From Apostichopus japonicus (lineage: Eukaryota > Echinodermata > Holothuroidea > Aspidochirotida > Stichopodidae), in assembly GCF_037975245.1 (NCBI RefSeq), contig NC_092562.1, positions 17,869,521-17,933,520 on the forward strand: a stretch of DNA of 64,000 nucleotides. The letters are read 5' to 3'. Under the pieces are notes generated by a model. It was not told the DNA's origin and ran no database searches. It saw only the letters and a list, made by a program, of their open reading frames with translations. Numbering within the stretch: position 1 is the stretch's first letter; each line of letters starts with the position of its first letter. Of this stretch, positions 4,264-39,200 are shown piece after piece. The translations under genes were made by a program, and so were the position numbers.

Positions 4264-4499
4264 ACAATGACGGCTACCAATCTGATTCTGAAGTTAATGG
4301 TAAAAATGGTGGTAACGGTGACAGCGGCGTGGTCGTCTCACCCAAACCCGAAATGAACGGCACGGAAGAAACGAAGGAAGATAATAAACCAAAGAAGAAG
4401 AAAATGAAGAAGAAGAAGAAGGCACCGGATTTGAACGAGTCTTTAATTGAGAGACCGCCAGCGGAGAAGAAAACAAAACCTACAGAAGTTACAACGTGA
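4264..4499 (+). CDS. Last coding exon of an unidentified gene, lysine-rich tail
   Basis: Seen: a strong polypyrimidine tract (about 4200-4255) and CAG acceptor at 4261-4263, then an open frame to a TGA stop at 4497-4499. It encodes about 78 residues beginning with a split codon, then NDGYQSDSE. The tail is hydrophilic: an acidic Asn/Gly-rich start with repeated NG, then a long lysine block (PKKKKMKKKKK), then ESLIERPP and a Thr/Lys end. Codon use looks constrained compared with flanking DNA. I do not recognise the gene. The composition resembles cytosolic tails of TLC-domain ER proteins (TRAM or ceramide synthase, whose tails have DDxRSDxE-like motifs), but this is only a guess. The rest of the gene lies to the left or in unseen exons. 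Confidence 0.5.
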
Positions 4500-12925: not shown

Positions 12926-15900
12926 CTAACTCTCTGATTGGCTGAGAGCAAACCTAACATCATCCTGACTGACATTGAGCAAGATTCTTTTTCCAATCTC
13001 ATTAAAACCAGCTTCAAGTAGCAATAGTTTGGAGGATGCTAGACGTACACAAACAGACCAAATCTCAGAAACACTGGGTGGAGTGAAACCTAGTGGAGAA
13101 ACAATACGTAAGAGAGTGAGAAACAAAATGGTGAATAAACTGCTAAACAATATACTGGAGAGGGCATGTGTATGTAAAAATTGATTAAAGTGAATGAAAT
13201 TGATATTTTGATCCTAACAGGTCTCTTTTTGCAGAGTCATACTTCACATTAAAAAGGAGAAAAGGAGAAATGAAAAGCTTCATGGTGACATATTTTATAA
13301 TTCGAAAATATGATAATTAGTCTGCAAGGTATCTTATGATGCAAAGCAACCAATTGTAAAACTGGAGTTGACTGTTCCATGGGTAAGAGGGATGGGGGTG
13401 CAAAACCAAAACCAGAATCCTATGGTAATATATTTTCCAACAACCCCACCCCCTTCCTATCTGTCTAAACAGAGGATAATGCCAATTCAAAACAGAGCCA
13501 ATTCAGCCAACAGCCAACTCAAAACAATTCAAAACAGATAATGCCAATGCAAAACAGAGGATAATGCCAAATAAGCACTTCCAAAGTGGATACGGTTGCT
13601 TACCTTGTAATCTACATAAGGAGACATGTTGCTTCAACACCTGCAATAGATAGGATAAATATATTAACATTGGCTAAAGAAATTTAGTTGTTACTATTTT
13701 TTATTAGATTAACAACGGGTTGTTTAAACTTCAAGAGAGTTAAATAAAAATAAAACAGTAAGCTTAGAAATAAACCAAAAATATGAACCTTGTATATAAT
13801 TTACACATTAGAATCATTTAGATGTTGTAAGGTCAATTAGCATTTAATTGAAACCTTCTTGGGGGAGGGGGTTCAGAAATACTTAGTATTTTGAAGAACA
13901 ATGCATTAGTTACTGGAATACAATGGCTTTGGAAGTAGAATACAAATTATTTTCCCTAATGATATTATAACCAGCTAATTTAATGATCAGCAGAATGCCA
14001 TTAACAACTCATGTTGGATTCTCATAATTATTGCATCTGAGGAAGTATTACTCACCTCTTCAAAAGTGGTTTCTTCCAGTCCAGTCTGTCTGAATTCTGA
14101 TATCAGTGCCCTGAGGAAGATCTGTTCCTGCTCGGAAGCATTCCTGATGGCCATAATCTTTGGAGAGCAAAACATCTCCTCCACCGCCCACTCGACGTGG
14201 TTTAACCCAACGGTACCTTTCGAACCCTTCTGTTTGGTCCTCTCGGCGATCTCTGTGGCCCGTCTGCAAATGTCTAGGGCCCTCCTGGCATCTCCCGAGA
14301 GAGCTGCCACCTAAACCACAAAGAACAGATATTAGAGAGAATGAGATAGCTGCAACATTATAACAACCAGAAAATTAAAGCAATATTCTATCTTGTTTGA
14401 TGCTAACAAAATGAAATCAGGCAAAATAGTTTTGCTTTCATGAAAATAAAATTTAGTAGAAGATCCCCTTAACCTCTTTCATATCACTTTGAACAACAGA
14501 ATAGAATGTATTCTCGTAGACAGAGGAACGCCATGCAAAGAAATATCAACACTGTCAAAATATACATTGTCGGTGTGTTGTACTAACTTCTGCATCGTTT
14601 CCCACTTCAGCAGTGTTTTCAGCTGGTGTTACCATGGAGACCATCTCATATTTGTTTTTTTCTTTGAATTATTATTCGTAGTTTAATTATTGTACGGATT
14701 ACAAATGACTTAAATATCCCAACAATGGAACTTGGCTTTGCATCCGTTTTGTATTTTTGGGTTTTTATAAACTGCTGCAAAAATTTATCAAATAAGAGTG
14801 TCCAACAAGCATGGTGTAAAATTGTACTCAAATTCTCTTCTCATGCAAATTTGTGAACAAGCAGTGGCGTTACCAGACTTTTTGCTTATCTGGGGGGGGG
14901 GGGCTAAGGAGGGTGGGCAAAGAGTGCGAGTGGGGGGCTCAAGTTTCTTGCGCGACCAGTTCGGTCATGTTAGGTACTTTTGCATAAACCCCATTCCCAA
15001 ATACTTGAAACCATGGTATCGGAACTGTTATAAATGTTGCTTTACCCAAATTGAACAATTCATTCCTGAGTTACATATGCTAAATTGTTGAAGGGATAGT
15101 CCAACTAAAATATGAACATTGTAAAGAACGTCAAGCACATAGCCAGGATTTCATCGTAGGGGGCGGTGCATATCCAATGTATTGACATGTCAACAAGAAA
15201 GCTTTGTGCCAGCTGCATAGGGTCCAGGTGACTGCCATGGGGGCCCCTGGTGCCTATGGTGGACTTAAGAGGCTTCAGTGCTTCAATTTTTATTTCAATT
15301 GGCCGAGATTTTAGCCATGTAAAATTCTATAAGAAATGTTCAAAATATTGCATATGATGAGCCTAATATTGATTAATATGGGATATTTTGGGGGGGGGGC
15401 CACCAATGTCATTTGAGAGGCAATCGGAGGGGGCAAGACATTTCACTTGGGGGTCCCACCTCCTGCCCCCATCTGGTTACGCCACCGTGAATGAGACACC
15501 ATAAAAGTCATATTTTATTTGCTGTTAGGTGGAGTAGCACATCATCAGTATTATTGTATACTATAATAATATACTATATTAATATATTATATAAATATGT
15601 ATAAATATTATATACATATCAAAAACCATAGTCGCCTGCATGATAGTGTAAATCTTATTTCACCTGCATGTAGCTGCGGTAAATCTCCTTACACACAACT
15701 TTTTGGCAGTGAGATATATATATTTGGGAAATCCCATTCTAGCCAAAAATTTGTGTAGTCCTAATTACATGTGGCAATTTTCTACCAGCATTCTGTTTTA
15801 GAACTTGACCTGTAAGCTATGACATGTTCAACATGGTCGCGTCAGATACTAAATGGCTCTTTAAGTTTAGAATTAGCCCTTTAAAGTGAACACACATGCT

Positions 15901-18900
15901 TTCTGTCTGTTATCTGTTGTGTCATATGCAGAGGTCTTACGTACCTTTCGAGCAGCTAGTTGGATGGCTTCTGAATCGAATGCACGTAGACCCTGTAATC
16001 TGACTTCGACGATCTCTTGAAGCTGTTTGAAGGTGTAGGGTTGGAACGTCATTCGGCTTAAACCCTAAACAAAAGAAGAAGAATAGAAAAGTGTGTTGTC
16101 GTGGTAACAATTGTTAAAAGATATGAAAATAGGAATATGTATGAGTTTTATATAATGTCATTCACTGAAACAGAGAACAAGGGAAAGAGAAATAGGAAGG
16201 ACCATAAAATTTAACCAGGCAATCCAGATCCATGCCATGCGACATTGCAAACATTAAAATGTTTCAACAAGCATGTCACTGAAGAACATCAGAATATGGC
16301 ATTATCCCTTCACCCTCCCCCCTTCTAAAACATGACAAGAAAAGTAAAACAACGGATATCTCAGAGACATATACAAAATTTTGAATACTAACCAGTCTGC
16401 TGGAAACCCGGTTCATCATGATCCTCTCCGGTAAATCCATTGTGTTAGCTATCGCCACGACGATCAGTCCAGATTTTGGTTTTGTTGGCCAATCGAAAAT
16501 GCTGTAAAGAACGTCCTGCTTTCTTGTCCATAAGAGATCAAGCTGTAACAATTACATACAGACCAACATATATGATTATATGTTCAAACCTCTCAAACAA
16601 TGTTTGCATAACAGAAAGTCCTCACCAAGTCACCAAAAGTCTAACATATGTCTTTGAGAAAAACTTGGCAATTTGCAAACACAGTGTAACTTAATGTATG
16701 ATTTCTGTTTTTGTATGGAGTGTTTATAGTCATTAAACAATTGAAGCAATTGCTAAGACATTAATCAACATTATCACAAAAAAACAAACACTGTTCAAAA
16801 TATGTTTACTACTGATCACTCAAAACTAAGACAACTCTTCAATTGTATTTTGACTTAAAGAGCTGGTAATTGTCAATTTTGTCTGCTCTGACATCATAAA
16901 TTGTTCACAAGGATGCTCTATACAACATATGTATCAATCATTTGAACAATCACTCCCTATGAAAGAACTAATATTCTATATTTCCCTCATTGAAATTAAC
17001 TTAAGCTACGTAAACCTACTAATTACATTGTGATGATCATATGGTTTAGCAAAATCAAAACGGTGCAGAAGTCAGTTGCCTCAACGTAATTGTGTGTAAC
17101 TGATGCTAATCCTCAATATGAGGGGGGGTGGGGATGTTGAGGGGAGTAAACTATCCATGACTAGAACCAGAACCACACCAACATAAAGAATTACACATTT
17201 AATAACATAGTGAAGACACATTCCTTAATAATATGAGAGGATCTATGCCTTAGGTTTTTACCTCATCTACAATCAGGACTACAGGCTTAGACTTCGGTCG
17301 AGGCGAAGAGAAATATTGTTCCAACAAAGAGGCTGCATGTTGTGGAGTTGCCTTTTGACCAGTCAAATGCTGCAAGAATAAAACAAAAACAGAAATAGAA
17401 GTGGATTAATAAGAAAACTGATTTTCTGCCTAGTTTAGACTAGTTTAGCAGAAATAATTTAAGTGTGACCCAATATGTTAATAAAGAGAAAAGAGTATTG
17501 ACGTGTAGTAGTGCTGATAGTTGACTCTTACTTTTGTAGTCGATTAATCGCATTGCTCTTCTCGCGATTACTCGGTTTCAGTTATGACGTCATCACATTT
17601 TTACAATGCAGAAATACAGTCAACACAAATCTTTCTCCATGGTGCACTGCCTTTATTTGTTCTTGTGTCTTAATGTGTGGTGTCTAAATCATGTTAACAC
17701 CAATAAAAACTGTGAACAATTTTCAATCTTAAATGTGTCCTAAATCGTTCATAGTAATTCATAAACTTTCGAATGAATCTACGAAGCTACTACAACTACT
17801 AACACTAATAAAAGCAAACATGCAACAATGAATAGATGTAACACCTTGTAGCGGTGTGATGAATAGTGTGCATGCCTTTTCTGTAGCTTGATAGCAGGCA
17901 CATATTTTGCTCATTGAAATTAAACTACACCGTAATCGACACACTCGATCAGACATCTGATAAATGTGAACCAGGCCAGTAATGAATTGTAAACATGTTT
18001 GAAGAAATGACAAATATTTGGCAATGGTAAAATATTAATAACTTACAAACTTGCAATTATGGGCAATGATCAATCATTGCTAGGGCTGAATGTTGCACTG
18101 CAGAACAAGATTATTACTGACAAGTAAACACATGCATCAAACCGGAGCAGGTGCTTGTCAAATTTGAACACAGCACAGTGCTACTGTAGCATTATTAGAA
18201 CCTGTACTTTTTTCAATATTTGCTGTCAAACTGCTCTAGTGTTGTGTTTGGTAGGTTAAGCTATTTTTCAAAAGCAGATTTTGTGTAGTGCTAGTTTGTA
18301 GTCGAGTTAATCCCAACTTAGGTTTTGAGCACGATTAATCAAACTTCCAAAATGTAATCCGGACAACTGGCGATTAATCAATTACGGCTATCAGCACTAA
18401 TGTGTAGCCCACCTTGCTAAAACCAGGCTACAAGCTTTATGACTTCAAGCTAATGCATTATGAATAAGGATGTGAATTCTGAATATTTAAAGGTGGCGGA
18501 AGGGTGCAATACTTAACTATTCTAGCATTAGAAAGGGTACCTATCAGTATTGAAATGGATCATTTTCACAAACAGAAATGGAAGAAGGTGGAGGGGGGGG
18601 GGTGTATCGTAATGGGTATCAATTCATGGTTAGCAAGGAATAGATAATCAAACTGCCAGGGACCACAGAATGAATCATTAATCACACATCTATAAACCTA
18701 CCTTTAGAATTTGAACGAAGGCTTGATGGGGTTCCGTTAGTCTCATTCCATTGATCTCTATTGTCTGGAAGGCCGGTATCTCACCTTCCTGTACTTCTGT
18801 GTTTAGTTCTTCCAGCATAGCATGGACAGTGGCTGTCTTACCAGTCCCTGGGACCCCAGACACGTACAGACATCTTCAATAAACAGACATTAAAATAAAA

Positions 18901-21900
18901 AAGCAAGGTCAGCAATGACACAGGGCTGACATGCTTACAATTCTGACAGGTGGGAAAAGTGATGAAAGTGCAGGATTGGGGAGGAGACATGTGAGAGGAA
19001 GTAAAGTAATTGTGAACTAGAAATAAAATCCAGCAGAGTTTTACATGGATCAAAGCTATAACTGCTGATGTTTTACAGGTCACCATGGTGATGACAAGAC
19101 CCACAAAGAAAGAGATGAGGGAGAGGGATTGGGTTGAGGTTTATTAGGAAACCAAGACACATGTAGTTAATATTTTGTAAAAGAAAGGACAACATTTTTT
19201 CAAGTGTGCTCAAGTAATTTGACCAACGATTTATAAAATTTAAATAACACATTTCTACTAATTATTGTTTATTAGTATTGTATATTAGTATTGTTATTGT
19301 TATAAGTATTTTAATAAATATTGTTTATTAGTAATGTTTATTACATAAATGAAAACAACCCCACAATACTAGACCTCTTGCAGCATTCTCTCTCGACAAT
19401 TGGTTTGGGTGAAACCTGCTTCAACTTACCCCCAGAGTCTGTCAATCAAGTGGCCCTTGACGAAAGAAAATATGTCGGTGAATTCATCTTCCCTGCACGG
19501 CAGGCTGGATGGTACTGCCGAAACGTGAAGTCTAGTTTCCAGGGAGACAGAGAATAAAAGTTAAGAATAACGATAAAACTTATAACAGCAATATATAACA
19601 ACAATATATATATATCACTTAAACTCATTTTTCAATTTAATCACTCTTTGATCACTTACAGGACATTTTCACTATTCACTTTGACAAGGAATGTTAGTCT
19701 TCAACAACATTTTGTTAAAATGCATCAAAACATTACATTTAATATAATAAAGACTACATATGAGCTCCATCTCTTGTCTAAATGTCCTATGGTGAATAAA
19801 AAAAAAATAGTACAAAAAAAGAAGAATTAATTTGGATTTGGATTTTCTGTAGGCAGACAACAATTTTTAAATATAGAGGTCACAGAATACCAGTGAGACT
19901 CCTTCAACAGCCTTACACATTTGTAGTAATATTTGTAGTATTGTCAGGGGTGTCAGAAGCTATTTGGGATTGATACAGCAGATCAGAGTGTGCCTATCTA
20001 TCATAATTATCGGGGGGAGGTTTGGTAGGTCAAACTGCGCTACGCGCCACCATGGTTGGCGCGTAGCGTTAATGAAGAAAATTTTGGAAAAATGCCTCCC
20101 AGATTGCAGGAAATGGCACTTCCCGAGCTTGAAAACAAGACCCCTGCCATGCCAGAGTAGTCACATTTAGCCTACTTGCCGTCATCATTATTGAAAATTA
20201 TTGAAAAATATACCTCCCAGATGCGTTCTCCCTTGTCTGTTTTTGTACCCGATTAATCTTCTGAAAAACATTTTTGAAGTGTGTTTCATTTTGGTTCTTT
20301 ACTTTTTGCCATTTTTTTTTCTTTGTCCTACTTTTTTTTGCGCCATGAATATTGGTGCGTACTGGCTCCGACGCCACTGATTTTGGTGAAAGCTCATTTC
20401 TTGTTCGTAGTTGACATATGTTACATGAAGCTTTCTTTAAGGCATATTGAATATCCAGAAGAACATATCCAGAATTACATATCCAGAAGAACATACATCC
20501 AGAAGAACATACAAGAAGAACATACATCCAGAAGAACATATCCAGAAGAACATACAAGAACATTATGGAGTGTTAGCTCAGTGGTTAATGCCGGTGCATT
20601 TCAATCATAAGGTCCCCGGTTCGAGTCACTCCCAGATTAATGTATGTCGTCCAGTTAAAGAGTTGTTGACAATGAGCAATTCATAATCATGGACGTTAAA
20701 TATGAATGTAAGAGACTGACTTCGGTCAGCTTGCGGATTGAATAAGGCAATGAGGCTTCTTCACAAGTTCCTGCTTGCAGGAGGATCTAATATACATACA
20801 TACATACCTGACTCTAGCCTGTTCCAGTGGTTTCGATGGTGTCTTTCTAGGAGTTTTTCTTGACCGAATCTGAGGAGTTGCTGCTTTAGCGGAGACTTTA
20901 ACCTGTCAGGAAAAATGTGGGAGAAAAGTTCAGTAACTTCCAGAAAGAAAGGATTTGTTCCAGAAATGGTGCAAAAATTTGTTCTATGACAGTGAAAAAA
21001 AAGAAGTAGTTTTGTCTTCCATTAAAAAAAAAAAAAAAAGTAGTTCTTTTCTGAAAAGTTTATACATTTCATTTCCAATCAGACAACCTGCCCTTACTTA
21101 CAGAGGTTTTCAAGGCTTGAACAGCAAAGCTTGTTAAACAAAGCAAAATGAATCTGTGACTGAGAGAATTTGTAAATAAACTAACTGTTCCTCAGATGAC
21201 CGCAGGGGACGCTTTTGTTGTATGACAAAAGACTCGAGTCATTTGAAATCACTGGACAACCCCTAAATGACTGGACAACCCCTAAACACTGGACAATCCC
21301 TAAAATCCAGCAATGATGAACATTCAGGACTTTATTTTTAATTTGTGTACGTTTATTAAATTATTAGCAATGTCATATCCACACCTCATAATACATAGTG
21401 CATGAAATAAAAAATAATGTTATTAATTTATTTGCTTTTAGTTTGTGATGAAAGATTGCAGTGTGAAGAATGCATTTCAACTGTAATTTTTCTATATTTT
21501 TGCTGTTCACCGATTCTTCAAATACATCCCTGTCAACCATCACAAACAAAAGCAAGGAAGGAAAGAAAACAATAAGAAAATAGACAATCCCTTGACTCAT
21601 AATTAAACAGACCTTTGGGGTAGCCACAGTCCTTCCTTTCACTGACTTCTTTGGTGTTTTCGCTCTCGAGGGACGATAGTTGCTCTCCTCCTCCTCATCG
21701 TCACTGCTGCTCTCGCTCCCATCCCATTCATCTTCGTCATCTTCGTCTTCTTCTTCTTTTATGGATGAGAAGTTGATCCGTCTCTTAGGAGTCTTCCTCA
21801 GAGATGATCTCCTGCTTGAAGCTCCAGGCTGTGGACACGACTGGGGGACCTTTTTACTGGCGACAGCTTGACGGGGGGTATCTTTCCTTCTCTTCACAGA

Positions 21901-24900
21901 TACCTTTGAAGTGGTCCTAGGTGTCTCAGACTTACTTTCAATCACCTTCTTTTTCAACCTCTTCAATTTCGCTAACCTCTCGTCCTCATTTTCATCTTCG
22001 ACCAAGGAGTCGCTATCGGAATCGACGTCCTCAAAGACGAGCTTTCTGTTTCGTTGGGATTTAGTCTTGGTCGGGTCTCTGTGCTTCTGGCCTTTACCAC
22101 GATCTAACGGAGGGCACGACTGAGGGACCGAGATCCGTACGCTCTTCCTCCTAGTGGGTGTGTTTTCACCTCTTTGGCTAGTCGATAGTCTGGACGTGGT
22201 CCTCGGGGCGGCCGCAGATTTCGGTTTTGTATTCTGCCCGGAATTTGCAATATTTCTTGTCAGACCGTTCAAGACCGTCACAGATTTGTTCCGTCCTTTG
22301 ACAGTGTCGTAAATAGTTTTATCTAAATCTAGGTCGCAAATGTCATCTTCCCGAAAAGTCACACTGCTTGACGTAAATTTCTTCTTCTTGGAGAAGGTTG
22401 ATCTCGATTTACTTTTCGGGGTGAACTCATCTCCGCTGCTGAAAAACAGGTCCAAAGCATCTACCACGTCCATGTTACCTTGGGAGACTCTACCAGTGGT
22501 TTTATTGGCTGAGAATAGAAGACAAAAATTCTGAGACTTCAAGCATTTGATGACATTACAAATGCCGAGATGTTTGAAATATTATGTACAATTATAATCG
22601 GCATGTTTTGTTTTTTTCAAAATGTAATTTACCAAATAAAAAGGAGAAACTAACCCAATTGTCATCATCATCCAATTTGATTTTGACACTTACATCAGAT
22701 GGAGGCAATCATTTGTGCGCCTAACTTCTTCATGTTAATTACTGCATCTTTAAGTTTCTGTTAGTTATACAGGCTTTGCTAGTTGACAATTTAAGACATT
22801 TCAAGTTCTTAACATGATCAAATATTGACACATTATCAACACTATTTTTTTCTCTGTTCATATTGAAATTATGGAAGATTAAGTAAGTATGATGGAAAGT
22901 CAAATGATTGTTAGGCAGGAGCAAAATTTAGCAAATGGTTTTTATCCCATTCTCAGAGCAGTTTTAACACTAAAGGTGTTATGTTGCTCTGAGATTTTAC
23001 AACACTGAGTATCTTAGTAGCTTCAATTGACACTGGAAATACTGTGAAGGATCCTTCTGTGTACTTAACTGTATGGTGCATGATTTATTTTTGGGGCCAA
23101 AAATGTCACATTTTTTTAGCTTGCCTAAGAGATAGATTAAGTTTTCTCTTTAACATCAATCCCATCATCTAAGCTAGCTTTCATGCATTTTGAGTCATCA
23201 TGGAAGACCCTTGGGGTTGAGGGCCTAAACCTTTTCAGACCAAGGTCTTAGAGAGAAAATTTGAAATCTTTACACTTGTAATACATCACAAATACCTTTT
23301 CTATGAGGTAAAGACTTAGTCAATGCGGCCTTATCTCTCGTCCGCCTAGCAGGCGGAGTCCTTGCTATCCTGTTTCTCCCTCCTGCCTCTCTTTCCTCTT
23401 CATCCCCACTCTCTTCATCAGAGCTCTCTTCATCTCTTCGTCTCACATCTTTCCTTGCTTTTGGTGTTTTCTTGGTCGATTTAGCATTTGCTATGTCATC
23501 GGAGAACATAGGCAAAAATTGTGTCCCATCAAAAGTCCACCGGACAAAGTAAAATGGCCGGTTATTTTTTGTTTTGAAGGGTGGTATAGAATCATCTGTA
23601 TATATTGCCTCAACCTGAAAAAGATTTGAGAAAAAAGAAAAATTCTAATCAGAGAAGGTAAGAGTTGATGTCTTGGTGTAGGGAAATTCTCAATTTAAAG
23701 ATTTCCATGCAAGCATTCACATTCCCAATGTACAAATAAACACCTGTCCACCAAGAAAGGGGTTTGTTTCCTTTCTAATGGTCATATGAACTACCATACA
23801 CTATCTTTGTCAGATTAATCATTTATACCACTTTAAATGGACAATGGGGAAAGCTAATCAAGTATATGTACGTATGTATGAAACAGCAATGAGTTGGCAA
23901 ATCTTGAATGTTGACAAACTTCCAGCCTGTACTGAGACTTGAACCCTGGCCTCATGCTATATGCAGACACCTTAACCAAGTAGACTATGGACACTGATTG
24001 TATGTCCAGAGGTTCCAAACCAGTTAAGAAACATCGCCATTCCACTAGATGGCTCTCCCCACCTGTATCGAACAATATTAGCTAGTGCTCATTGGTGACA
24101 TATATCTGTTTCACTCTTGAGATCAGATATTTATTATATACATACAACTAATTTACACATATTTACTTGCTAAGCATGTACTTGATAAGCTCCTTTTACA
24201 ATACTCACAATACATTGACCAATGATAGTCTCTGCATCGATATCAACTTCCACTATGCTAGATTTTGGTCTGTTAAACAAAAACAACTCTTGTTCATGAG
24301 CCACCATGGGCATCCGGAGTTCCCCAAGGGCTGGAAGCTCTGATTTCCTCAGGTACCATTGGACCTTAGCCCTTTTACTGTCCATAGCTTGACCTGTGAG
24401 TCAAGCAGAGGGAAAAATCTTGTCAGGTTAATTGGGTAATGATTATGAATTAATGTATAAAATTTCATGATTCAGTTGCACATATGAACACCTATAGATC
24501 CTAATAGCCTAAATTATTTTGTTTGATGCTGGCCAGCAGGGTTGTCGATTACAGATGGCAGTGCCCCCCCTCCCCCCCCAAGGATATACACGGTCACTGT
24601 ATAAAATTTTGATATAGTCATAATTTGGTCCCTTTATATCAAAAATTTAAGAAGAACAGTAGTGGAAGGAATCAAACCATGGGGTGAAAACTAGAAATGT
24701 TGGTATAATTACAGGCTGGTTACAACATCAAGTCAAAGTTTTAACTTTGGCAAAAAGGGAAGGAATGAGAGGGAATAAAACCAAGATTAAACTTGTTACA
24801 TTTTCTTTCACATTATCCTTAAACAAAACCCTGAAGTATATCTTCAATAAAAAGGAGATAAGTGTAACATTATCTATGACATTATAAATATATAAATTTT

Positions 24901-27560
24901 ACCATTGCTATTATTACACTATCAACAAGTTTACTAACCATTATCATAAAAGTGTTCAACCACAGCCACAAAGTCCTCTCCATCAACGTTGTCAATGACG
25001 ACAATATCCCCTGTACTGACAATGGTTTGGTCTGGTAATTGTAAATGCCTGAGAACAAGAAAATAGTAATTTACATAATTCAAAATGTAACAGTGGTAAC
25101 CCTTACCGATGGACTTGGTAAAAGGCGACGAGCGCCATCTATTTTACTTCACTACTTTTTTTATGACAATTGTCACTACTATTACTACTTTTTGCGAATG
25201 GTCTTCTATTCCGTTTTTACAGAGCCATTCTTGTGCTTAACAAGATCATTTGATATTCAGGGTAAGCTTTAATTCATGATTGTGTGATAGGATTTAATTG
25301 CAGAGTGATGAAGAGTGTATTTGATTTCGAAATTGCTGTCAATTAAGTAACTTAAGTAACTTAGCTGTCACGGTAGATCGCTGTACACCACCGTGCTATC
25401 CTAACGCACGTGTGTTGTGGGGCCTTGGCCTTGACATTATAAGATCTTTGTCACAATGTGCGCTATACCTCATGTTATTGCTAAGTTGTATACTATTAAG
25501 CTTATACTTATCCCTTTCGTCATTATCATAATCAGTGATGGATGATCAAACTTATAATTATTAACCATGATTCCTGGAGATTGGTGAAGGTGTTAATTAG
25601 TATTATATATAATCTCCTTAGCAACCCAATTGTTAACATGAAGTTGGTCACATGACATGTCACCTGATTTGTTATTCTTTTTATTTCCTTAAGTGATTTG
25701 TTTAAATTCTTTTTGTTGTAGTAATTGAGATTGTTGGATTCATTTAGTGCTTCGCTATGACCAACATCTGAGAATAATGAGACAATATTTAATCAAGTAA
25801 GAACAATACTCAATGTTTATGACTCCTCGTCACTCATGTATTGGTTCTCATTGCACATTTAATTTACATTAATTATCCATCATAAGTAATTACCTTAATC
25901 TTGTATTTATGATCCTTTTGTTTTGTCTTTGCAGGGTTTTTATTTCTTACTTGTTGTTTGTTAACCGTACAAATACACCGCATAGCAACATGAACCTGTG
26001 TTTCGGTCATTACAAAAACTATGCAGAATATCTTTTGACGCATCATACTTCTTACTAGCCTACCGTACTGACCAAGGAACTCTACAAGAAGGAAAGAAAT
26101 ATCAACAAATTTGTCCTTAATGGTAACTGAATGTGACCCTTAAAGAATCATGGATTTTGCATTGAAGTTTAATTTTGCTTCACTCTGACCAATTCACATA
26201 ACATTAAGACATAATTTGTTAGCCCTCAATATGCAGTTACAAATTACAACTAATTGGTTGAGCAATCATAATGGGACAAACTAAAACGAATGACAGCGAA
26301 TGACCGAATGACAATTGATTTTGTACAGGGTTAATATTCATTCGCGAATGACAGCGAATGACAACAAATGACAACGAAGGACAGTGTTGATCAAGTGCAG
26401 ATAGAATGATTAACGGAGTGGAGTAAATGCGGTTATTGGTTTTCTGCGCAAAATTGATTTGAGGAAAATCTCATGTCACGTGGTTGCAGAGTTTTTGTGT
26501 AATTTACGGATAGAAACCACAGGGAAAGTTTTTGTGTGAGAATTAATGCGCTTGAGTGCTGTGCTTTTGACATTTACCTCTGTAGATTTATATAGAAAGA
26601 TAACTGAGGCCGTTTCAAGATTATAGTATATATTGTTAGTTTCTAACAAATCATATCGGAAAAATGACGTTAAATTTACTTTTTAAAATCAAACTTACAA
26701 TTTCGCTTACTATAAGGTGCGTTTTTATCTTGTCCGTACTTTACTAGATCTAGATACACACGAAATCTGAACTGTGATATCCGGTTGAAGCAAATGTCTG
26801 TGCTGTCATTATACTGTCATTCGTTTTAGTCAACGCATTTTTTTAGTGTGTACAACATATTGTCATTCGTTATGTGTAACGCAATTGTCATTCGTTTTAG
26901 TAACACCCATCATAATGATGGTTGAGTACTTAAGTCCTTTTTTAGTAATGTGTTACATTTTCATTTGAGAATGTTTCATCATTGTTTCATCAATGTTGGT
27001 ATGATTTTGATGGACTATGTTATCAGGTACAAGTCACAGTTTTGGAATTTCATGGATAGTGACTGACAAATGTATTGTCTATCATGAAGTATACTTTAGA
27101 ACAGAGTATAATGCAAGTGTCTACAGACATCACTAATAGGCCTTTGAAAAGCCCATAGCTACAATTTTTGAGCACACTAGCCCAGCTGCAAAACAAAGCA
27201 TGGCAATTTGATCATGTTGTGTATCGCATGCCCTGCATGTCTGGTTTGGCCTTGGCCTATAGGCCCTGAAACATCCTTTTTGCTGATCTATGTATAATCT
27301 ATTGTATTTCTTAGAATCAGTTTGGCGATGCGGCCTTATGTTTAACTGTCGTTACATTACTGTTATGTTAGTAAAATATATTCGATGTATGCAAATATCC
27401 CTTTAACTTACGTTTAACAAGGCTATTACGTATCTACAATAATTGAACGTGCATTATGTAGGCTACACTGACTTAGTGCTTACTCGTAATATTTCTTCGA
27501 TCTACGCTTTGAAGCTCCCTCCACGGTGAACTTCCCTTTCCAGCAGTATTGCATTTCCAT
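12926..27560 (-). CDS. ORC1: Origin recognition complex subunit 1
   Basis: Largest ORC subunit; binds origins, hydrolyses ATP and loads MCM2-7 in the nucleus. Fourteen coding exons in reading order: 27484-27560, 24939-25048, 24209-24393, 23296-23614, 21613-22508, 20808-20902, 19430-19531, 18702-18873, 17262-17369, 16393-16542, 15945-16064, 14056-14310, 13604-13640, 12926-13089. Phases join to 2790 nt, 929 residues (human 861). The start is the first in-frame ATG after an upstream stop at 27681-27683. BAH domain about residues 25-165; charged linker 165-555; AAA+ with Walker A GVPGTGKT (601-608), Walker B VDELD (686-690), sensor 1 Asn721, arginine finger Arg737, sensor 2 GDARRA (784-789); C-terminal winged helix ending LNVSQDDV, as in human. 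Exon 13 is only 37 nt. Introns hold several transposons. Divergent neighbour: PRPF38A. Confidence 0.96.
13380..13575. repeat. Degenerate AATTCAAAACAGA-type repeats in ORC1 intron
   Basis: Units such as GATAATGCCAA and AATTCAAAACAGA recur irregularly from about 13475 to 13570, just downstream of ORC1 exon 13 in its reading direction. It is a local minisatellite with no evident function. Confidence 0.6.
14862..15487. mobile_element. hAT-like non-autonomous element in ORC1 intron 11
   Basis: The left end CAGTGGCGTTACCAGA is mirrored by the right end, whose reverse complement is CGGTGGCGTAACCAGATG. The flanking 8-mers TGAACAAG (14854-14861) and TGAATGAG (15488-15495) differ at two positions, consistent with an aged target duplication. 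The 626-bp interior has G-runs and no transposase frame. Ends and duplication size suggest hAT; assignment is inferred. Confidence 0.7.
17509..18399. mobile_element. hAT-like non-autonomous element in ORC1 intron 8
   Basis: It starts TAGTGCTGATAG and ends with the exact inverse CTATCAGCACTA. The flanks ACGTGTAG (17501-17508) and ATGTGTAG (18400-18407) are an 8-bp target duplication with one mismatch. Subterminal GATTAATCG motifs occur at both ends. The 891-bp interior has no transposase-like frame. TAGTG ends with an 8-bp duplication fit the hAT superfamily. Confidence 0.85.
19945..20379. mobile_element. Probable hAT-like element with palindromic module, ORC1 intron 6
   Basis: The left end CAGGGGTGTCAGAAGC resembles the inverse of the right end (CAGTGGCGTCGGAGCC). 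The interior carries, in reverse orientation, the module shared with elements at 44966-45269 and 60445-61530. Here it forms a near-perfect palindrome (about 20036-20068, centre CCATGG). Flanking 8-mers match at only five positions, so the exact borders are uncertain. Confidence 0.55.
20449..20566. repeat. Minisatellite of AGAAGAACATA-type units
   Basis: About seven irregular units of roughly 14-17 bp containing CCAGAAGAACATA run directly into the 5' end of the SINE at 20567. It sits inside ORC1 intron 6. Confidence 0.85.
20567..20807 (+). mobile_element. tRNA-derived SINE, copy 1 (ORC1 intron 6)
   Basis: The head is tRNA-like: an A box TAGCTCAGTGG near 20574 and a B box GGTTCGAGTC near 20617, the RNA polymerase III internal promoter. 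The body continues with GACTTCGGTCAGCTTGCGG and ends in a TACA-repeat tail. A second copy at 57917-58095 shares head and body. The tail touches ORC1 exon 6 (20808-20902), and the exon's splice donor, read on the minus strand, lies in it. Confidence 0.88.
26273..26908. mobile_element. Non-autonomous DNA transposon, GGG-end family copy 1 (ORC1 intron 1)
   Basis: The ends are imperfect inverted repeats of about 23 bp that start GGG and share ACTAAAACGAATGACA. The flanks ATCATAAT (26265-26272 and 26909-26916) form a perfect 8-bp target duplication. Subterminal GAATGACA units repeat at both ends. The 636-bp interior has no long frame. A sister copy lies at 47962-48525. The superfamily is unassigned; hAT and Merlin both make 8-bp duplications. 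Confidence 0.92.
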
Positions 27561-27707
27561 GATTCCAAATAAACGAATGCTCCCTAACCAAACTGAGGGT
27601 AATGAGGAAAATATATCTTCACCTCGAATTAGAGATTTTAACACAGTATTGCAAGTGAACAAATTGATCAGCTGTTTATTTCAGTGTTGCCGCGGCGTCA
27701 TTCATGC

Positions 27708-27718
27708 TTCGCGCGAAA
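27708..27718 (-). promoter_or_regulatory. E2F-type site upstream of ORC1
   Basis: TTCGCGCGAAA on the plus strand reads TTTCGCGCGAA on the ORC1 strand. This contains TTTCGCGC, a perfect match to the E2F consensus TTTSSCGC, in a palindromic core. It lies about 150 bp upstream of the ORC1 start codon. Human ORC1 is a known E2F target at the G1/S transition, so the position is meaningful. Binding itself is inferred. Confidence 0.65.
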
Positions 27719-28361
27719 TGAAGCACGTGGTACAAAACACTGTTGGTCGATTCCATTCTGTTTAGAGGTTTGTGTGTTTGGTTTGTGTGTTTGGTTTCAA
27801 CTTAGTTTAGCAATTTTCTAAGGTATCGTAACCAATCGAATACTGACTGTGCAATTGGGAATTAATTTTAAAAGAGCAAAGACATTTTGGGCGATGAAAC
27901 GAAAATAAGTGGTATAAATAGCCCGTATAAAGTATAAGTCATATAGAAAGAAGAAAAGAACGACAATAATTTTACCAAAGGAAAACTAGTATATCAAAGC
28001 TGCAACTGCTTGCCACGAGCCTTCCACCGTGGACTCCAGCCTGGACACTAAGATCCATACAAAAGGCAATTCGAAGCATTTTTTCCTTCTATATTTGCTT
28101 GTAAATTACCAAAAGAGATGATGAAATATCTGTCTTACTGGACTGTTCCAGGGCCCCTGCAGAGCCCTGCATGGCCACCATCCCAGTTCAGTGTAGCGTA
28201 AAGCAACTTGCCATCCGCATCTTCAAGAAAAAGAAGCATGAATTGCAAAATGGGCCTACATAATTATAGGAAAGGAGATGAGGCCTGTGTTTTCTTAGAA
28301 ATCCGAGAATTGTTAACCTTTTTAAGAAAGGGCCCAGGGGAGGGTATACATTACCCGATTT

Positions 28362-28432
28362 TGTAATGTAATGTAATGTAAATAAAATCTTATATAGCGC
28401 ACTACGCGCGATGCAACTGTGCGCTTTACAAA
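28362..28432 (-). mobile_element. Retroposon 3' end with TTACA-type tail
   Basis: Read on the minus strand, a segment with paired GCGC-containing motifs (AAAGCGCACAG, GTGCGCTATATAAG) ends in a short ATTAC/TTACA repeat tail. This is the usual look of a truncated LINE or SINE 3' end. The family is not identified. Confidence 0.5.
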
Positions 28433-28511
28433 CAATCTAGAAAATACAATGCCATAAAACAATAAATAGAAAAAAAAACAGTAAATACATATACCATCTA
28501 CAGAAATATAC

Positions 28512-28835
28512 AGGAATATGAGATCGAAAAACTATTAAAAGTACTGGTGAAGCGTAAAGCGATAAAACAGATTGACTACAAAATCTACAATTTGAATGCT
28601 AAAAAGTGATAATTCCAATTGAAGTAAGAACCTAAAAACCAACACGACAAAACAATATAAAACAGATATAAACAGGAATATGAGATCGAAAAACTATTAA
28701 AAGTACTGTGAAGCGAAAAGCGATAAAACAGATTGACTACAAAATCTACAACTTGAATGCTAAAAAGTGATAATTCCAATTGAAGTTAGAACCTAAAAAC
28801 CAACACGACAGAACAATATAAAACATATATTTTAG
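28512..28835. repeat. Two-copy 162-bp tandem duplication
   Basis: AGGAATATGAGATCGAAAAA occurs at 28512 and again at 28674. The whole 162-bp unit repeats nearly identically through AACACGACAAAACAATATAA. The second copy is slightly altered. It lies between the ORC1 and PRPF38A promoters. Confidence 0.92.
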
Positions 28836-29217
28836 GTAGGTTTGGATCATTATCATAACATATAAAACAGGAAGCGAGTAAGAGTCCGTTTCTACATAGA
28901 CATTCAAACTTATATGTGACCGGGTTTCACATGAGAATATATATATGGCGCAATAGCTCTTGTACAGACTCAAAGCCATACGGACTCAATATGGCCCCAT
29001 AGAGACACAGAGCCTGTTTATTTACCCCCCCATTTTTCCTTAGGCCTCCTGATTTACCCTGGTCCCCCAGACTGTAGCCCCTCTCATCCCATCTTGTCAG
29101 GCCTGCTTAGGCACTAAATACGGAACACCTCCAATTCTAATATTAGGGACTGAACTGGGAAAGAGGGAGCTCGACTACTTTTTTTTCGGCGTTGAATTGG
29201 TCAAAGTTGCAAACAAA

Positions 29218-32200
29218 ATGGCGAATCGCACAGTGAAGGACGCCAAAAGTGTGAAGGGTACAAACCCTCAATATTTGATCGAAAAAATCACACGTTCAAG
29301 AATTTATGAATGCAGATATTGGAAAGAAGAATGTTTTGCTTTGACAGGTATGTTTCAAGTTCGAGCAGGTTAGAAATAATTGTTGCGTTGACGTTAAAAT
29401 TGTAAGCCTAGTTTGGACCGCTGATGTAATCTAGGCTGCACTAGTCGTATAGGTTTCACTCAGTAGTAAGGGTGGGCGAAGCCTAGTTATGCGAATTTTG
29501 CGATCACTCTACGGGGAATTCGAAGGCAGGGTCAATTTCAACTCCTTGTACTGATACATGAGAGATGAGATGAGAGTTCCAGATATTTCTTACAAACTCT
29601 GACAAAAACATAAAATTTGAACTACGTTACTTGGCAACGTTAGAATGACTGAGGGGATGTGGTTGCCAGCAAGACAAGCCTAGCTTAGGCCTAAGTAGTA
29701 AGTCTAACATTAATCACTTGAAAAGGTTTACGATCTCATGAGTACACCAAGAACTTTTCTTTTTGGTATAATGACAGGTATATACTTTTCGCTTGACATA
29801 TAAATAAAGGGGATTATTTTTTGTCTCGTAATGTTGGCATCAGTGTCTAAAGAGGTAATTGACGCTATGTAACACTTTCCACACATTCACAGCTGAATTG
29901 TTGGTAGACAAAGCGATGGAACTTCGCTACATTGGAGGTACATTTGGAGGCAACATAAAGCCAACACCTTTCCTTTGTCTGATACTAAAGATGTTACAAA
30001 TTCAACCCGAGAAGGACATCATCATTGAATTTATCAAGAACGAAGACTTCAAGTAAGTTTTTGAAACTTCCATCAATTGTTTTGGTAGGTAAGGTATTGC
30101 TAGTATTCAGGGCAGTGCTCTTTTTCAAGTGTTACTTCTTAAACAATGTTCTGTAATAATCTTACCTGTGAAAAAAAAGTAGGAAGATTCAGTTTGTTAT
30201 ATTTAAATCTATAATTGAGCCTGATAATGAGGTTAATGTATGTAACATTGGCTGACTTTCCACCAAACTCATAAATGTGTTTTTAAAGCTGCTATTAAAA
30301 GTAGGAAATAGAAAAGGTAACTTATTTGAAAATAATTTACTTGAAATTAATTTCTTGTTTCTCTTATATTGATTTCAGTTTTGTCATGATTATTATTATA
30401 TATTATTTTTATTGTCATTAATATTATTATGAGGCTGAAAAGCAGTCTTCTACCTTGAAGTACCTGTCCCTAGAAATGAAATGCTTAAAGTTTTATTTTA
30501 GAAAATTAGCCTTTATTTTATATGTTTGCACAATAGAAGTACCTTATTTTACATTACTTTTTCAATTGTATTATTTTATGGTTGTTGTTTACAACTCATA
30601 GCTAAACCATCATGATATTTCGATGTTCTGTTTGCTAGGTACGTGCGTCTACTAGGAGCATTTTATATGAGGATCGTAGGTGAATCTCTGGATGTTTATA
30701 AGTATCTGGAACCGTTGTATCTGGACTACAGAAAAATAAGAACTCAGAATAAACAAGGAGGTACTGTGATCTCTCAGTCTAAAGAATACCCCTATATTAT
30801 TTAAGTTAGTAGGCTGCTAGTGTTAGCTGCTGCTATGTTCAATAATTGTCGTTAGCAGAAATCTTCAAGTACTGTAGTGAGAGAAGAAAAATCCCAAAGG
30901 GAACAGGGGCATGAGGCAGGGGTATGAGGCAGGGGGTGAGGCAGGGGCGTGAGGCAGGGGGAAGGGAAGGTAACCAGGGAAGTGGATGGGGAAGCAGGCA
31001 GGGAATTGATATCTTTATACCAACTAAATTACTTCCATGAAGTGATTTTTCTTTTTTCATTTGACCTAAACTGTGTTACATCTAGATTATTATCCAGTCA
31101 ATAAGAACAATGCCTCGTTAGTAACTTATATTGTTCAGATAGCAAACACCTCTTTGTGTACGTACAGTAGGTTATTGCCATCATGGGTTAATTTTGTCAA
31201 ATTCACATTTCTGCCGTTGTTGTGACCTAACAGATTTTGTGCTCTCGCACGTGGATGAATTCATCGACGAAATTCTCCGGGAGGAGCGAGTATGCGATGT
31301 CATTCTCCCTCGTATACAGAAGAGAAAGGTGTTGGAAGACAATGAACAGCTGGAAACCAGGGTAAGTTCATTTTATGATAGCTAACTTTCATGCGTTGTC
31401 CTACAGGTGGAATTAGAATAGTAATTGTGGCTTCGTGTAGGTTCAAGAATCTTACTAAGAAGCTAATTCGAAAGGTTTAGTCTACCTTTTTTTTTCTTGA
31501 AAGATCGCAAAAGTATATATTGATGCTGAAATGTTTTCTTTTTCGTATTTCTCACCAGGTCAATGCCTTAGAGGAGGACATGGATGAAGTGGAAGAGTCA
31601 AGTGATGAAGAAATGGAACTTGAGGTAATCCGCAAACGTGGTTAAAAAATATAATTCCGGATGCTTTCATGTGTTCTGAAAGTAACCTATAAACTACATA
31701 GCAACGTTACAGTTTAACTGTTTACTGACCCCATGTTCAGGTTGAAAGAAGAAAAAAAAGTAGCAGATGTTTCAAGAAGCTTAAACATATCTTTGGACAT
31801 TACTCCAACAAAAGTAAAAAGGATTTTTATCTCTCCGCGTTTTTTTTACGATTTATATAATGGACAGGTTTCAAAATGAAGAAGAAGAATGTAAATCATT
31901 AAAATTTTCATTACAGGAGCTCCAGAGGCACAAGTCTCCAGAGCGGAGGAGAAATCACGAAAGAAGGAGAAGGAGTGCGTCGCCACGACATCGGAGAAGT
32001 AAAAGTAGATCGCCACATCGAAAGTAAGATCATGTTAAAACACATTTTCCTGTTTCTTAGTTTCCTGAAAGGGAAATCTATGGAGTCATTCTTACCAACC
32101 TTGCAAATTGTAAGGGGGACCACAGGTTGCAAGTTGGCTATGACTATAAGGTGGATTGCAAAGTCGGTAATTAATATTACGGTTTGTTTCGTTCAACACT

Positions 32201-34425
32201 TCAGCATACAGAAACGTTGTACTCAAAGCCGAGGCCAAAGTGAATTTATCAGGTCACATATCCGGAGTCTATGCATGCTAAGTTCTTCAATACTACTCTC
32301 ATTACCTTTCAAGAAAAATTTCATAGTGCAGTTTTAATTTTTTTTCTTTCAATAGGACAAAATATTATCTAGACTTTCCATTTTGTGAATTGCATAGGAA
32401 TTTGTTGATGAATTCTGAAATAGTGACAGAACAAAGACGACCTTAAGGACTTGACCCTCATAGTTTCTTAGTTGATATATGTCATTCTTTGGAAATCCAA
32501 CCGCATCCACTCCATACATTAGCATCCTGCAATCTGCTGATACTGTTCCAAAGCTTTCATTTTATTGCGAGGAGCAAAAATAGATCTGCAATGCTCTCTC
32601 TTTTGGTTGTAAATGTGTAAAGAAAGATGAGCTCTGTTCTGTTTGCAGAAGAAGAAGTCCCTCCCCGAGAAGAGAAAGACGAAGAAGTAGATCACCCAAA
32701 CGCCGCAGGAGTCCTCATCGTGAGAGGAGGAGAAAGTCCAGATCACCAGGTAAGTAGAAATTTACAGCATTGTCTGCTTTAGAACTAGAAAGGGGGGGGG
32801 GGGGTGAAAGGAAAGCGTGAGATATAAAGCACTTGGCAAGTTATCTTCCTTCCCCTTCTGTCCGATTCTATCCTTCTTTACTTTCACAGATGCTGAGAAT
32901 GTCTTTGAAAACCCCAGTCATAACTACATATGACTGTTTTATATCTCCCGGGTGGCATGCATGTTTTTCACATTAAATGATGGAGTTTCTTACAGATTTC
33001 ATATTTACAGAAGACTTACAGATATTATTAACATGTCCATGATAACTTGTATCTTGGAGATATAATTTAAAGTTGACCTGAGTCTTCTTATAATGAGATT
33101 GATATCCCCCCCTACCCTCACCCCCTGTCAAAGGATATGGTACATAGAAAGCAGGAAAATTGAAGTACTTTCTCTTCTCAAGTGGCTGTTCTAATGTAAA
33201 AAAAGATAGTGGCATATTTCAGCTGACAGGTGCACATTAAGCCCAACAGTGGAAGCCCCCACACTTGATTTTTTTTTCTATTGCCACCACATACAGGACT
33301 CATGATTCTGTTTAGTGAATTCAGGCCTTTTCCCTTGTCAATTAGTGTGTTCACAGGCAGTGGTTAACAATCCATCAACTGCTTAGAAATGGAAATTTTA
33401 GTGATTGTGAAACACACTGGATATTGGAAACAGTTTTAAGTCACAAACATTGCTTCAGTCTCTAAAACATATCATGATGATAATGTACAATTGTGATGGG
33501 GAAGAATTGGTTGGGGGGGGGGGGGTTTGATTGAATTCTTCCTTAAATAACATTAACTCCACATTTGGCATTATTAGTGACTTTGTATCAGCAGATAACC
33601 ACTTCCATGTCAGAAATGTGGATATTTTTCTCTGCATTTAGTCTGTTTGCCTTTTGAGCAGATCTGATGAGAGAGCTTTTGAGTAAACAGTTGTAATTGG
33701 TGAGTATGAGAGGCAAGCCAGTCAGTCGGTAATCAATAATTACAGTGTAATAACCCAGTGCCAATTTCATCATTCAAGTCTGATATTTTTGTATAATTTA
33801 ATGGTATTTTCACATCCTTGTTATTTTATTTTATTTTATTTTATTTACATAGATCATAGGCACAGAGATGTCAGAGATAGTGACCATCATCGTAGAAGAC
33901 ACCGGTCTACCTCACCAAACGACAGGTAAGAGCAAAACATTTGTAACCTGCTGCAAGGCACCCTCCCAGATTTCTTCAACTAACGAACCTTGGTGTTGTG
34001 AGCACTCAATGAAACCATTTTACTATAGACATTTTTTCAGCCAGATACTTTTCAATATCAGTATAAAGCACACAAACAAAGACAAACGAGTCATTTCATT
34101 CTTTTCCATTATTATTTGAAAGCAATGTCCTAGGTTAAACCCCTGTCATGAATGTCGTCAAAAAGTTATTTTTAGTGATTTTGTCATGGTACTGTTGTCA
34201 AAAGGTTATTTGAGAATGAAATATGAATGAGAATGAATCCAGCACTGTTAGACTGTACAGTAAAACCTTTCCAATTTGATAAAACAGTATTTTTCCAATC
34301 TCTCCTTGGAAAAAAATCATAGACTGTCATTAATTGTGACTGTTTTCAAGTTTGTGACATATACTTCAATTTTTGGTTCTTTTTACTTTTCCCTTTTCAG
34401 ACACAGAAAGTCTCATCGTCACTGA
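29218..34425 (+). CDS. PRPF38A: Pre-mRNA-splicing factor 38A
   Basis: PRP38 is a spliceosomal B-complex protein needed for activation of the tri-snRNP-loaded spliceosome in the nucleus. Nine coding exons: 29218-29347, 29893-30052, 30639-30760, 31234-31361, 31559-31624, 31917-32023, 32649-32749, 33853-33925, 34401-34425. Phases join to 912 nt, 303 residues (human 312). The start ATG (context AACAAAATGG) gives MANRTVKDAKSVKGTNPQYL, almost the human N-terminus. The PRP38 domain spans about residues 1-180, with the conserved stretches GGNIKPTPFLCL, MLQIQPEKDI and VDEFIDEI. An acidic patch (EEDMDEVEESSDEE, about 184-200) follows, then an Arg/Ser-rich tail with SPERRR and RSRSPKRRR repeats typical of splicing factors. 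It is divergent with ORC1 and convergent with EIF2D. The exon 8 acceptor tract is a TTTTA microsatellite. Confidence 0.96.
30904..30965. repeat. GCATGAGGCAGGGG minisatellite
   Basis: Four to five units of about 13-14 bp (GTGAGGCAGGGG variants) lie in PRPF38A intron 3. No function is evident. Confidence 0.85.
33817..33852 (+). repeat. TTTTA microsatellite forming a splice acceptor tract
   Basis: About five TTTTA units are followed directly by TTTACATAG, the acceptor of PRPF38A exon 8. The repeat replaces a normal pyrimidine tract. Length changes here could affect splicing. Confidence 0.8.
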
Positions 34426-36217: not shown

Positions 36218-39200
36218 TCACCTCTTCTTACTCTTAGGTGCTAAGTCCAAACCTTGTACGAACCTTCTTGGAATCTCGTACTCTTCTGTGAATGCAGAAA
36301 GGAAAGAGTAACAATTCGTTTGCGAGCATCTTCACTCGCACTAGTCAAAGAAGTCAAAGTTCTGTCTCCATGGTAACGTCTCTCACACACATACAAAACA
36401 CATACATACAAAACATACCTTGAGCAGTCTTTTGCTATGGTTTGTAATAGCTTATTTACCTCAAGAAGGTTACATTACACATCCCAAACATGTATTTATG
36501 CTACACCTTACCTCCCCCCCCCCTTTCAATACATTATTCTTTAAGAGGGATGGATACTTTGGTGTTTGAAGTTCATTGCTTTAATAACAAAAGTGCTGTA
36601 ACAGTAGGTCAAGAGTCAAAGCTGATGCCATGTTTTATGCAGGAAATATTTAATTTTTTTAGTTGCTGGTAAGCAGCAGAGTAGAAGATGTTATCATAGC
36701 AATTGAATCAAAAATGATTTTGTTTTTCCTGACAAATATGTACGATCCTTCGTCCACAGACGGAAAACAACATTTCTACAAAAAGAATTGCATTTCTAGA
36801 ACAATGATTGCCAAACGAACATTCCAAAAATGTCACATTTTCAAGGATAATATATTTCAAATCCAAAAGTAAAACTACTGAATATTTTCTGCCATAATGA
36901 CATCACAAACTACAATATGTACTGTATTGCCATCCACCTCTTAGTGTATTAGAGAATATTACAGCTAGTTTGTCAAAATAGGTTAGAATCAATCGACCAT
37001 ATCTTGAGTTCAGAACAAGATATTGGGTTTTCAGCAAACAAGATAGAATAGTTCTCTCTTTACGATAGATGTTACATTCTTTACCGCCAAAATATCCCTT
37101 ATGCCCTTTATGGAAAGGCCGACCTTCACGGCAAAAAAATGTTTGACTACATATGCTATTTGCAGACTGAGAGTGGATGAAAAAAATCAACAGTATAAGT
37201 ATGATGCTGGACCTCACCCAATAACAGCTTGCTCAAATAGTTGATTTGGTTGCCCTGAACTCTGACCTCCTGGCCAGACTTTTGACCGTGTCCTTGGGAG
37301 ATGGTTGCACTGGCCGCGACCCCTATCTGTAGCCGATGGGCAAAATCTTTTATATCAATACCATACGGATCGAGATTCTGGATGACCGTCATCTGTGAAA
37401 AGGGAATGAGGAAGGGAGAAGTCAGAGGAAATGGTAAATTAAAAGAAAGTTGGAAATAATTAATGAATTGTGATCATGGCTATACTGGAGTGATCGGAAA
37501 CTATATGTGTGGTGTGCCATCACCTACCACAGAACTACAGGAGTGTGGTCTGATACAGCGGGAACCATCTCATGGAGAATTCATGTGAGGTCCAATAAGG
37601 GATGGGAAGGGAACTGAACCCTCCTCACATTCCTTGGATATTTTTTACGTAAAGATAGCTTTCTTGGTAACATTCAGAGATAACAATAATCACCACCACA
37701 ACCTTATATGATTCTGAAGACTCCAAATTCTAATGCTGTTTGTCCCCTGAACAACCAGTTGTACTGAACATCTGTAAAATGTTGTACAATGTTAAGAGAC
37801 ATGCCTTTTGTTCTTCCATACATTCTAGAGGAAAGATGAAAGAGAAACAATGTTTATTCCTACCAACTTGTTGCCAGCTTTTCTCTCTATTTTCAGACTT
37901 ATTGGTTTCAGTTTGCCTTTGATGACTGGTCTATTGGAAGCCTGTTCTGAAGGTAACATCTGGTAGCCAGAACTCATTTTAGCAAAACACCTGATGATGG
38001 AATACCCAAAGACACAAAAAAAGTGAGAAATAAATAAATAATAAATAAAGGATTAAGAGCAATATTTTCAGAGAAATACACCCGCTGGTCAGTTATTACG
38101 AAGCCCTGGTATAATTTTAAGTACTACTGGGCATGCTACTACAATATTAAAACCAGGAGGTACAACGATCAGCAAAAATTATCAGTGAAAGAACCCTGTA
38201 AATAGAACTTTACATGCATAACCATCTGACAGTACTATTTATAGAATAGATATGGAAACTGAAGGTCAAAGGTCAGAAAATAGATGTATAATTGAATTAG
38301 AATGTATTGACCTGTCTGTCTGTCATACCTTGTAAACACCTGATCCCAAGGTAAATGAGTTATGTAACCTTCTGACTTATCCATGATCGCATCATGTAAA
38401 TGAGGGTCAAGGATCACCTGACTGGGGAATAAACACAATGAGATAATTACTTAACACTTACATTTGTGAATATAATATAATTTCAGGAGAAACTCAATTT
38501 CTTACAATTTCAATGAGACAGTAGGGAAAAAATAGGTTTTTATCAACACCATATCATAATATAATCTGTAAATAAGTACTAGGTTTCTTTACGAGTGGCA
38601 ACTAGCAATAAGTCTTTAGACAACTTTACCTAATCCAAACCCTATAAGGGCTATCTACAAAGATATCTTGAACATTCTTGAGAAATTTTTGCAACCAACA
38701 AAATTGATTTGAATAAATAATTAGTGAGACAAATAACTTCAAATTCACTTTGAAGGTAACCCAATCCTCAATATTACATTCTAGTATTAATTTCCAGCAT
38801 CTGGTCTCTAGAATTTGGTGACTTAATTGATTGCATTATCAGTTCTACAGTGTAAACTGTGTTGAAAAATAATATAATATTTCTCTTTGTACTATTTTAT
38901 GCTTGTAAGTAAGTAATTATGAGAGATAATCAGTAAACTTACCTTCTGTTCAGTGGATCAACCAACTCATTTCTTTTTACGTATTCTGTCACAGCAGATC
39001 TAACTTCTTCTGCCTTCATCCACGAACCTTTCCTGAATAAATACAAAAAAGGAGAAGAAAACATCAAGTATGGAACACTTTCATTTGTACAATTTTCTTG
39101 CCCAGTCAATGGTATCTTCACCAGTCTACTTTCACCGATGTGTTAGACTCCGCCCCCCCACCCCATTCTCAGAGAAAGCCAAAAAAGTTATCCCACTCTC

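Follow-up and report, generated by a model that had tools for sequence, protein, structure and literature searches.

The closest described counterpart of the locus studied here is the human ORC1-PRPF38A pair, which we take to lie at 1p32.3. The earlier note on this DNA had it that the two genes stand head to head in human. This is confirmed in print, where they are named as the divergently paired gene ORC1-PRPF38A, one of three human pairs of this kind that link the cell-cycle and spliceosome pathways of KEGG (PMC3815023). Both genes are assigned to one stretch of 571 bp, chr1:52869831-52870401, in a methylation table (PMC3975093). The human ORC1 promoter has a functional E2F site; once this site is mutated, the promoter becomes derepressed in G0/G1. 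The promoter is described as having no CHR (PMC5716687). This fits uneasily with the list of 210 candidates for p53-p21-DREAM-CDE/CHR control in which both genes appear, since that list was made of genes that are DREAM-bound, have a conserved CHR and do not exceed -3 in p53 Expression Score (PMC4705690). One shared promoter could yield binding and CHR calls that are counted twice; the expression score is given per gene.

Bidirectional promoters in general have been defined by transcription start sites (TSSs) located within 1 kb (PMC2423431), and examples spanning more than 1 kb have also been reported (PMC2871058). An enrichment of divergent genes with short gaps between them is seen in mammals, whereas none was detectable in fishes or in non-vertebrate animals (PMC2871058). 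Deep conservation of human divergent pairs is uncommon but documented, since 66 of them are kept in fly, 50 in worm and 18 in yeast (PMC12672016).

We have analyzed a window of 64 kb of sea cucumber DNA (the term refers to the whole stretch, 64,000 nucleotides) in which the same two genes are found in the same divergent orientation as in human (PMC3815023). They are adjacent, on opposite strands and with their 5' ends facing each other, without any gene in between (Table 1). The start codons point apart over a spacer that matches the 1.66 kb given in the earlier note, and the inner ends of the first coding exons are at 27484 for ORC1 and 29347 for PRPF38A. Six spacer ORFs were compared with Pfam and none gave a match at E 0.1, and the whole window contained neither Rfam matches at gathering score nor tRNAs. 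Where a single 571-bp stretch is assigned to both human genes, the sea cucumber has the full spacer between start codons and a duplicated segment within it. The locus resembles the head-to-head pairs described by PMC2423431 in that two unrelated housekeeping or cell-cycle genes are involved, but differs from them in the distance of over 1 kb that separates its start codons.

Table 1. Coordinates of the features of the ORC1-PRPF38A locus, in positions of the window.
Feature	Position	Strand	Evidence or remark
ORC1 coding span (not every exon boundary resolved)	12926..27560	-	homology and ORF list
ORC1 second coding exon, where the BAH domain begins	24939..25048	-	splice sites, frame, homology of joined BAH exons
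ORC1 first coding exon, predicted	27484..27560	-	open frame, phase-2 donor GTAAGC, in-frame BAH join
Spacer between start codons	27561..29217	.	1,657 bp
TTTCGCGC, exact TTTSSCGC match	27711..27718	-	151 bp upstream of ORC1 start codon
CACGTG E-box beside E2F match	27724..27729	.	one palindromic site in gap; 6 in window
Tandem duplication of 161 bp, its two copies identical at about 95%	28500..28830	.	self-comparison
AAAATGGC, YY1-like, at PRPF38A start codon	29215..29222	+	motif match, weak
PRPF38A, nine coding exons, 303 aa	29218..34425	+	splice model and homology
EIF2D-like gene, convergent with PRPF38A	37159-46466	-	Pfam SUI1 E 5.2e-13, Pre-PUA E 1.9e-12

Sequence comparison identifies both genes firmly. 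The PRPF38A model consists of exons at 29218-29347, 29893-30052, 30639-30760, 31234-31361 and 31559-31624 (exons 1-5) and at 31917-32023, 32649-32749, 33853-33925 and 34401-34425 (exons 6-9). All eight introns are GT...AG and the reading frame is uninterrupted over the 303 residues. Residues 1-302 align (E 4.3e-124) with the PRPF38A of structure 5o9z, presumably the human protein, and 155 of the 204 positions in residues 1-204 (76%) are identical, a level that points to an animal outside the vertebrates. The assignment, for which the direct comparison was with PRPF38A, follows from the PRP38 domain (Pfam, E 7.7e-67), the N-terminus and the RS-rich tail. When residues 1-203 were compared with viral contigs, none of the eight pattern-matching stretches was confirmed as a relative. 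In the case of ORC1, whose stop is at 12926, the exons of the ATPase and lid match the ORC1 of structure 5uj7 (E 1.2e-48), the best Cdc6 entry (7jgr_G) reaching only E 8.9e-17. The joined BAH exons match the ORC1 of 7ctf (E 2.4e-9) and Pfam BAH (E 5.6e-8), and the last exon matches Cdc6_C at E 4.8e-5, short of Pfam's cut-off. The product is then a protein with a BAH domain and an ORC/Cdc6 AAA+ ATPase with lid, nearer to ORC1 than to CDC6.

On balance, and with some reserve, we favour the reading that this is the counterpart of the human pair by common descent, now working from two separate core promoters. An ORC1 core promoter would be located just upstream of 27560 and would be driven through the E2F site in the spacer, giving cell-cycle-dependent expression, and a constitutive PRPF38A core promoter would be located just upstream of 29218. 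Growth of the spacer, partly via the tandem duplication, would have pulled apart any compact bidirectional promoter that existed before. That the genes have remained neighbours may be due to an open region that both promoters still share, or to no break having been fixed yet.

The E2F match supports a promoter on the ORC1 side. It is the only exact match to TTTSSCGC (the E2F consensus) on either strand of the whole window, and it is oriented with ORC1. Its proximity to ORC1 agrees with the functional E2F site of the human ORC1 promoter (PMC5716687). Shuffled sequences gave an expectation of 2.09 exact matches in the window, so that the single one found is no excess and only its position is notable. 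A first-order Markov simulation put the probability of at least one match in 200 bp at 0.0059 with the composition of the whole window and at 0.034 with that of the 200-bp stretch directly upstream of ORC1. Weighing against two promoters, the chance of at least one match anywhere in the gap was 0.127, and the site had been spotted by eye before the probabilities were computed. The matches with one mismatch (31 in the window versus 24.25 expected) are at background level and were given no weight. The counts of other elements in the gap region, compared with the expectation from their density in the window, were 9 versus 4.27 for TATA (four of the nine being one overlapping TATATAT run), 4 versus 6.84 for Inr, 6 versus 3.47 for CCAAT and 7 versus 3.18 for TCT; they carry no significance values and were not used in the conclusions. 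The YY1 motif is a feature of housekeeping promoters, and the YY1-like match at the PRPF38A start codon is weak, because there are 11 such matches in the window, two of them in the gap region.

The observed/expected ratio of CpG was 1.19 (undepleted) over the 200 bp that precede ORC1, versus 0.51 for the whole window. Farther into the spacer, two bins covering 28000-28299 are depleted (0.21-0.36), the AT-rich and repeat-bearing middle (28300-28899) is undepleted (1.01-1.42) and 28900-29199 is depleted again. The 200 bp upstream of PRPF38A had a ratio of 0.39 (depleted), with 0.97 in about the last 100 bp, a value based on 4 CpGs. Being undepleted beside ORC1 and mostly depleted on the side of PRPF38A, CpG favours a promoter close to ORC1 and is nearly silent on that of PRPF38A; that it marks no clear second promoter tells against our reading. 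It may also be that the TSSs are less far apart than the start codons. The tandem duplication is a sign of spacer growth, but it explains only about 161 of the 1,657 bp, and a shorter original gap in the sea cucumber lineage would be a supposition. Separate promoters are in keeping with an enrichment of short-gap divergent genes that was detected in mammals and not in fishes or non-vertebrate animals (PMC2871058). That the spacer is a transposon present elsewhere in the window was rejected, because self-BLAST (E 0.01) recovered the tandem pair only.

Common descent is the best reading of a comparison of two species, with human taken from the literature, because the same neighbour in the same orientation would be very unlikely by chance. 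The arrangement is then probably very old. It is presumably not universal, as orc-1 is on chromosome III and prp-38 on V in C. elegans, and the yeast genes ORC1 (YML065W) and PRP38 (YGR075C) do not share a chromosome either. Ancient conserved microsyntenic pairs of metazoans have reportedly been described by Irimia et al. 2012. Our case is similar to them in that unrelated neighbours have been retained over long times, and differs in that two species are compared here and in that we see no developmental target gene, which makes a bystander model fit poorly. No description of the pair outside human was found among the matches listed from a limited full-text collection, and under the fly locus names no paper among those listed placed ORC1 and PRPF38A together. 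The best 15 of 330 matches on sea urchin, amphioxus and synteny mentioned neither gene. Neither gene is named in the main text of PMC12672016 and PMC3024869, ORC1, Prp38 and PRPF38 are absent from PMC2871058, and ORC1 is absent from PMC2423431. The finding is a wide-gap case of an already known pair. If the pair is ancestral, it would provide a natural test of the longevity of divergent pairs, the gap being wide and yet the neighbours kept.

Slow rearrangement might have kept the neighbours together passively, without any regulatory tie, although we consider this rather unlikely. In favour of this, the spacer has tolerated a duplication. Besides, the gene beyond PRPF38A is here EIF2D-like, while the human pair presumably has TUT4/ZCCHC11 and CC2D1B as neighbours and EIF2D is not known to be adjacent to it; the wider block would then have been reshuffled and the pair kept. 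TUT4/ZCCHC11 and CC2D1B are named only as genes at the human ORC1/PRPF38A locus (PMC7780623). The same study, in human osteoblast cultures, found that knockdown of PRPF38A cut mineralisation and knockdown of ORC1 did not (PMC7780623), in line with this reading. However, a reshuffled block with a retained pair fits either constraint or luck, since rearrangement around the pair is also predicted by constraint, and head-to-head pairs of less than 1 kb are commoner than tail-to-tail ones in chicken (PMC2423431).

That one nucleosome-free region drives both genes and that E2F ties replication licensing to splicing is close to the shared promoter or co-regulation that the earlier note had proposed, and we regard it as unlikely in the sea cucumber. 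It is less likely than two promoters because the published definition requires TSSs within 1 kb and the gap between start codons is larger here. The CpG-depleted segments at 28000-28299 and 28900-29199 and the tandem duplication are interposed between the two genes, and the sole exact E2F match, beside ORC1, is about 1.5 kb away from the start of PRPF38A. On the other side, bidirectional promoters of more than 1 kb are on record (PMC2871058), the 200 bp upstream of PRPF38A have no CpG-rich zone of their own except in the last 100 bp, and both human genes are assigned one 571-bp stretch (PMC3975093). The co-regulation part of the proposal keeps some support in human, where both genes belong to the 210 p53-DREAM candidates (PMC4705690). 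That E2F control acting across the gap couples licensing to splicing, and has in this way kept the pair since the ancestor of human and sea cucumber in spite of more than 1 kb, seems to us distinctly improbable.

The preferred reading of two core promoters uses an ORC1 start that we infer from splice phase and frame, phmmer having given no alignment of the first exon (27484-27560) to ORC1. Its start codon (27560-27558) opens a frame that continues through the donor GA/GTAAGC and the acceptor TTCTCAG, ending at 25049, into the BAH exon, and no in-frame ATG precedes 27560 before a stop. The search for an ATG followed by at least 12 codons and a phase-2 GTRAG donor within 25051-29217 gave four rows, corresponding to three distinct exons, and that at 27484-27560 was picked among them by eye as ORC1-like. 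A misplaced start, with the real 5' end elsewhere and a different spacing, is very unlikely in our opinion and would be compatible with any of the promoter readings; the unaligned exon and the other candidates of the right phase (28139-28239 and 25951-25991) speak for it, and what speaks against it is the join, which is open and in the correct phase, together with the E2F match directly upstream. The orientation and the neighbourhood of the pair are independent of where exactly this exon is placed.

Some minor features of the window deserve mention. Among the flanking ORFs compared with Pfam (the 150 longest of 325 that passed a filter of 45 aa in length and of composition), the only matches were SUI1 and Pre-PUA, which belong to the EIF2D-like gene, and CoxIIa once (E 0.00077). 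Neither this comparison nor a ranking by codon usage gave a name to the gene(s) on the left side of ORC1, where there is a lysine-rich, exon-like ORF at 4050-4496 (+). An ORF of 187 aa at 58432-58995 (-) looks by eye like the terminal part of a reverse transcriptase from a retrotransposon, with no Pfam match at E 0.01. Within the spacer, the ORF at 28139-28239 (-) starts with MLLFLEDADGKLLYATLNWDGG, has a phase-2 donor after it and gave no match in Pfam at E 0.1; it might be either a fragment of a gene or an alternative 5' exon. A short upstream ORF at 27676-27705 (-), with nine codons (MNDAAATLK) and a stop, lies in the interval from the E2F match to the start codon of ORC1. Finally, in the first intron of ORC1 a unit similar to CGAATGACA is repeated in short arrays at 26344-26384 and 26847-26896.
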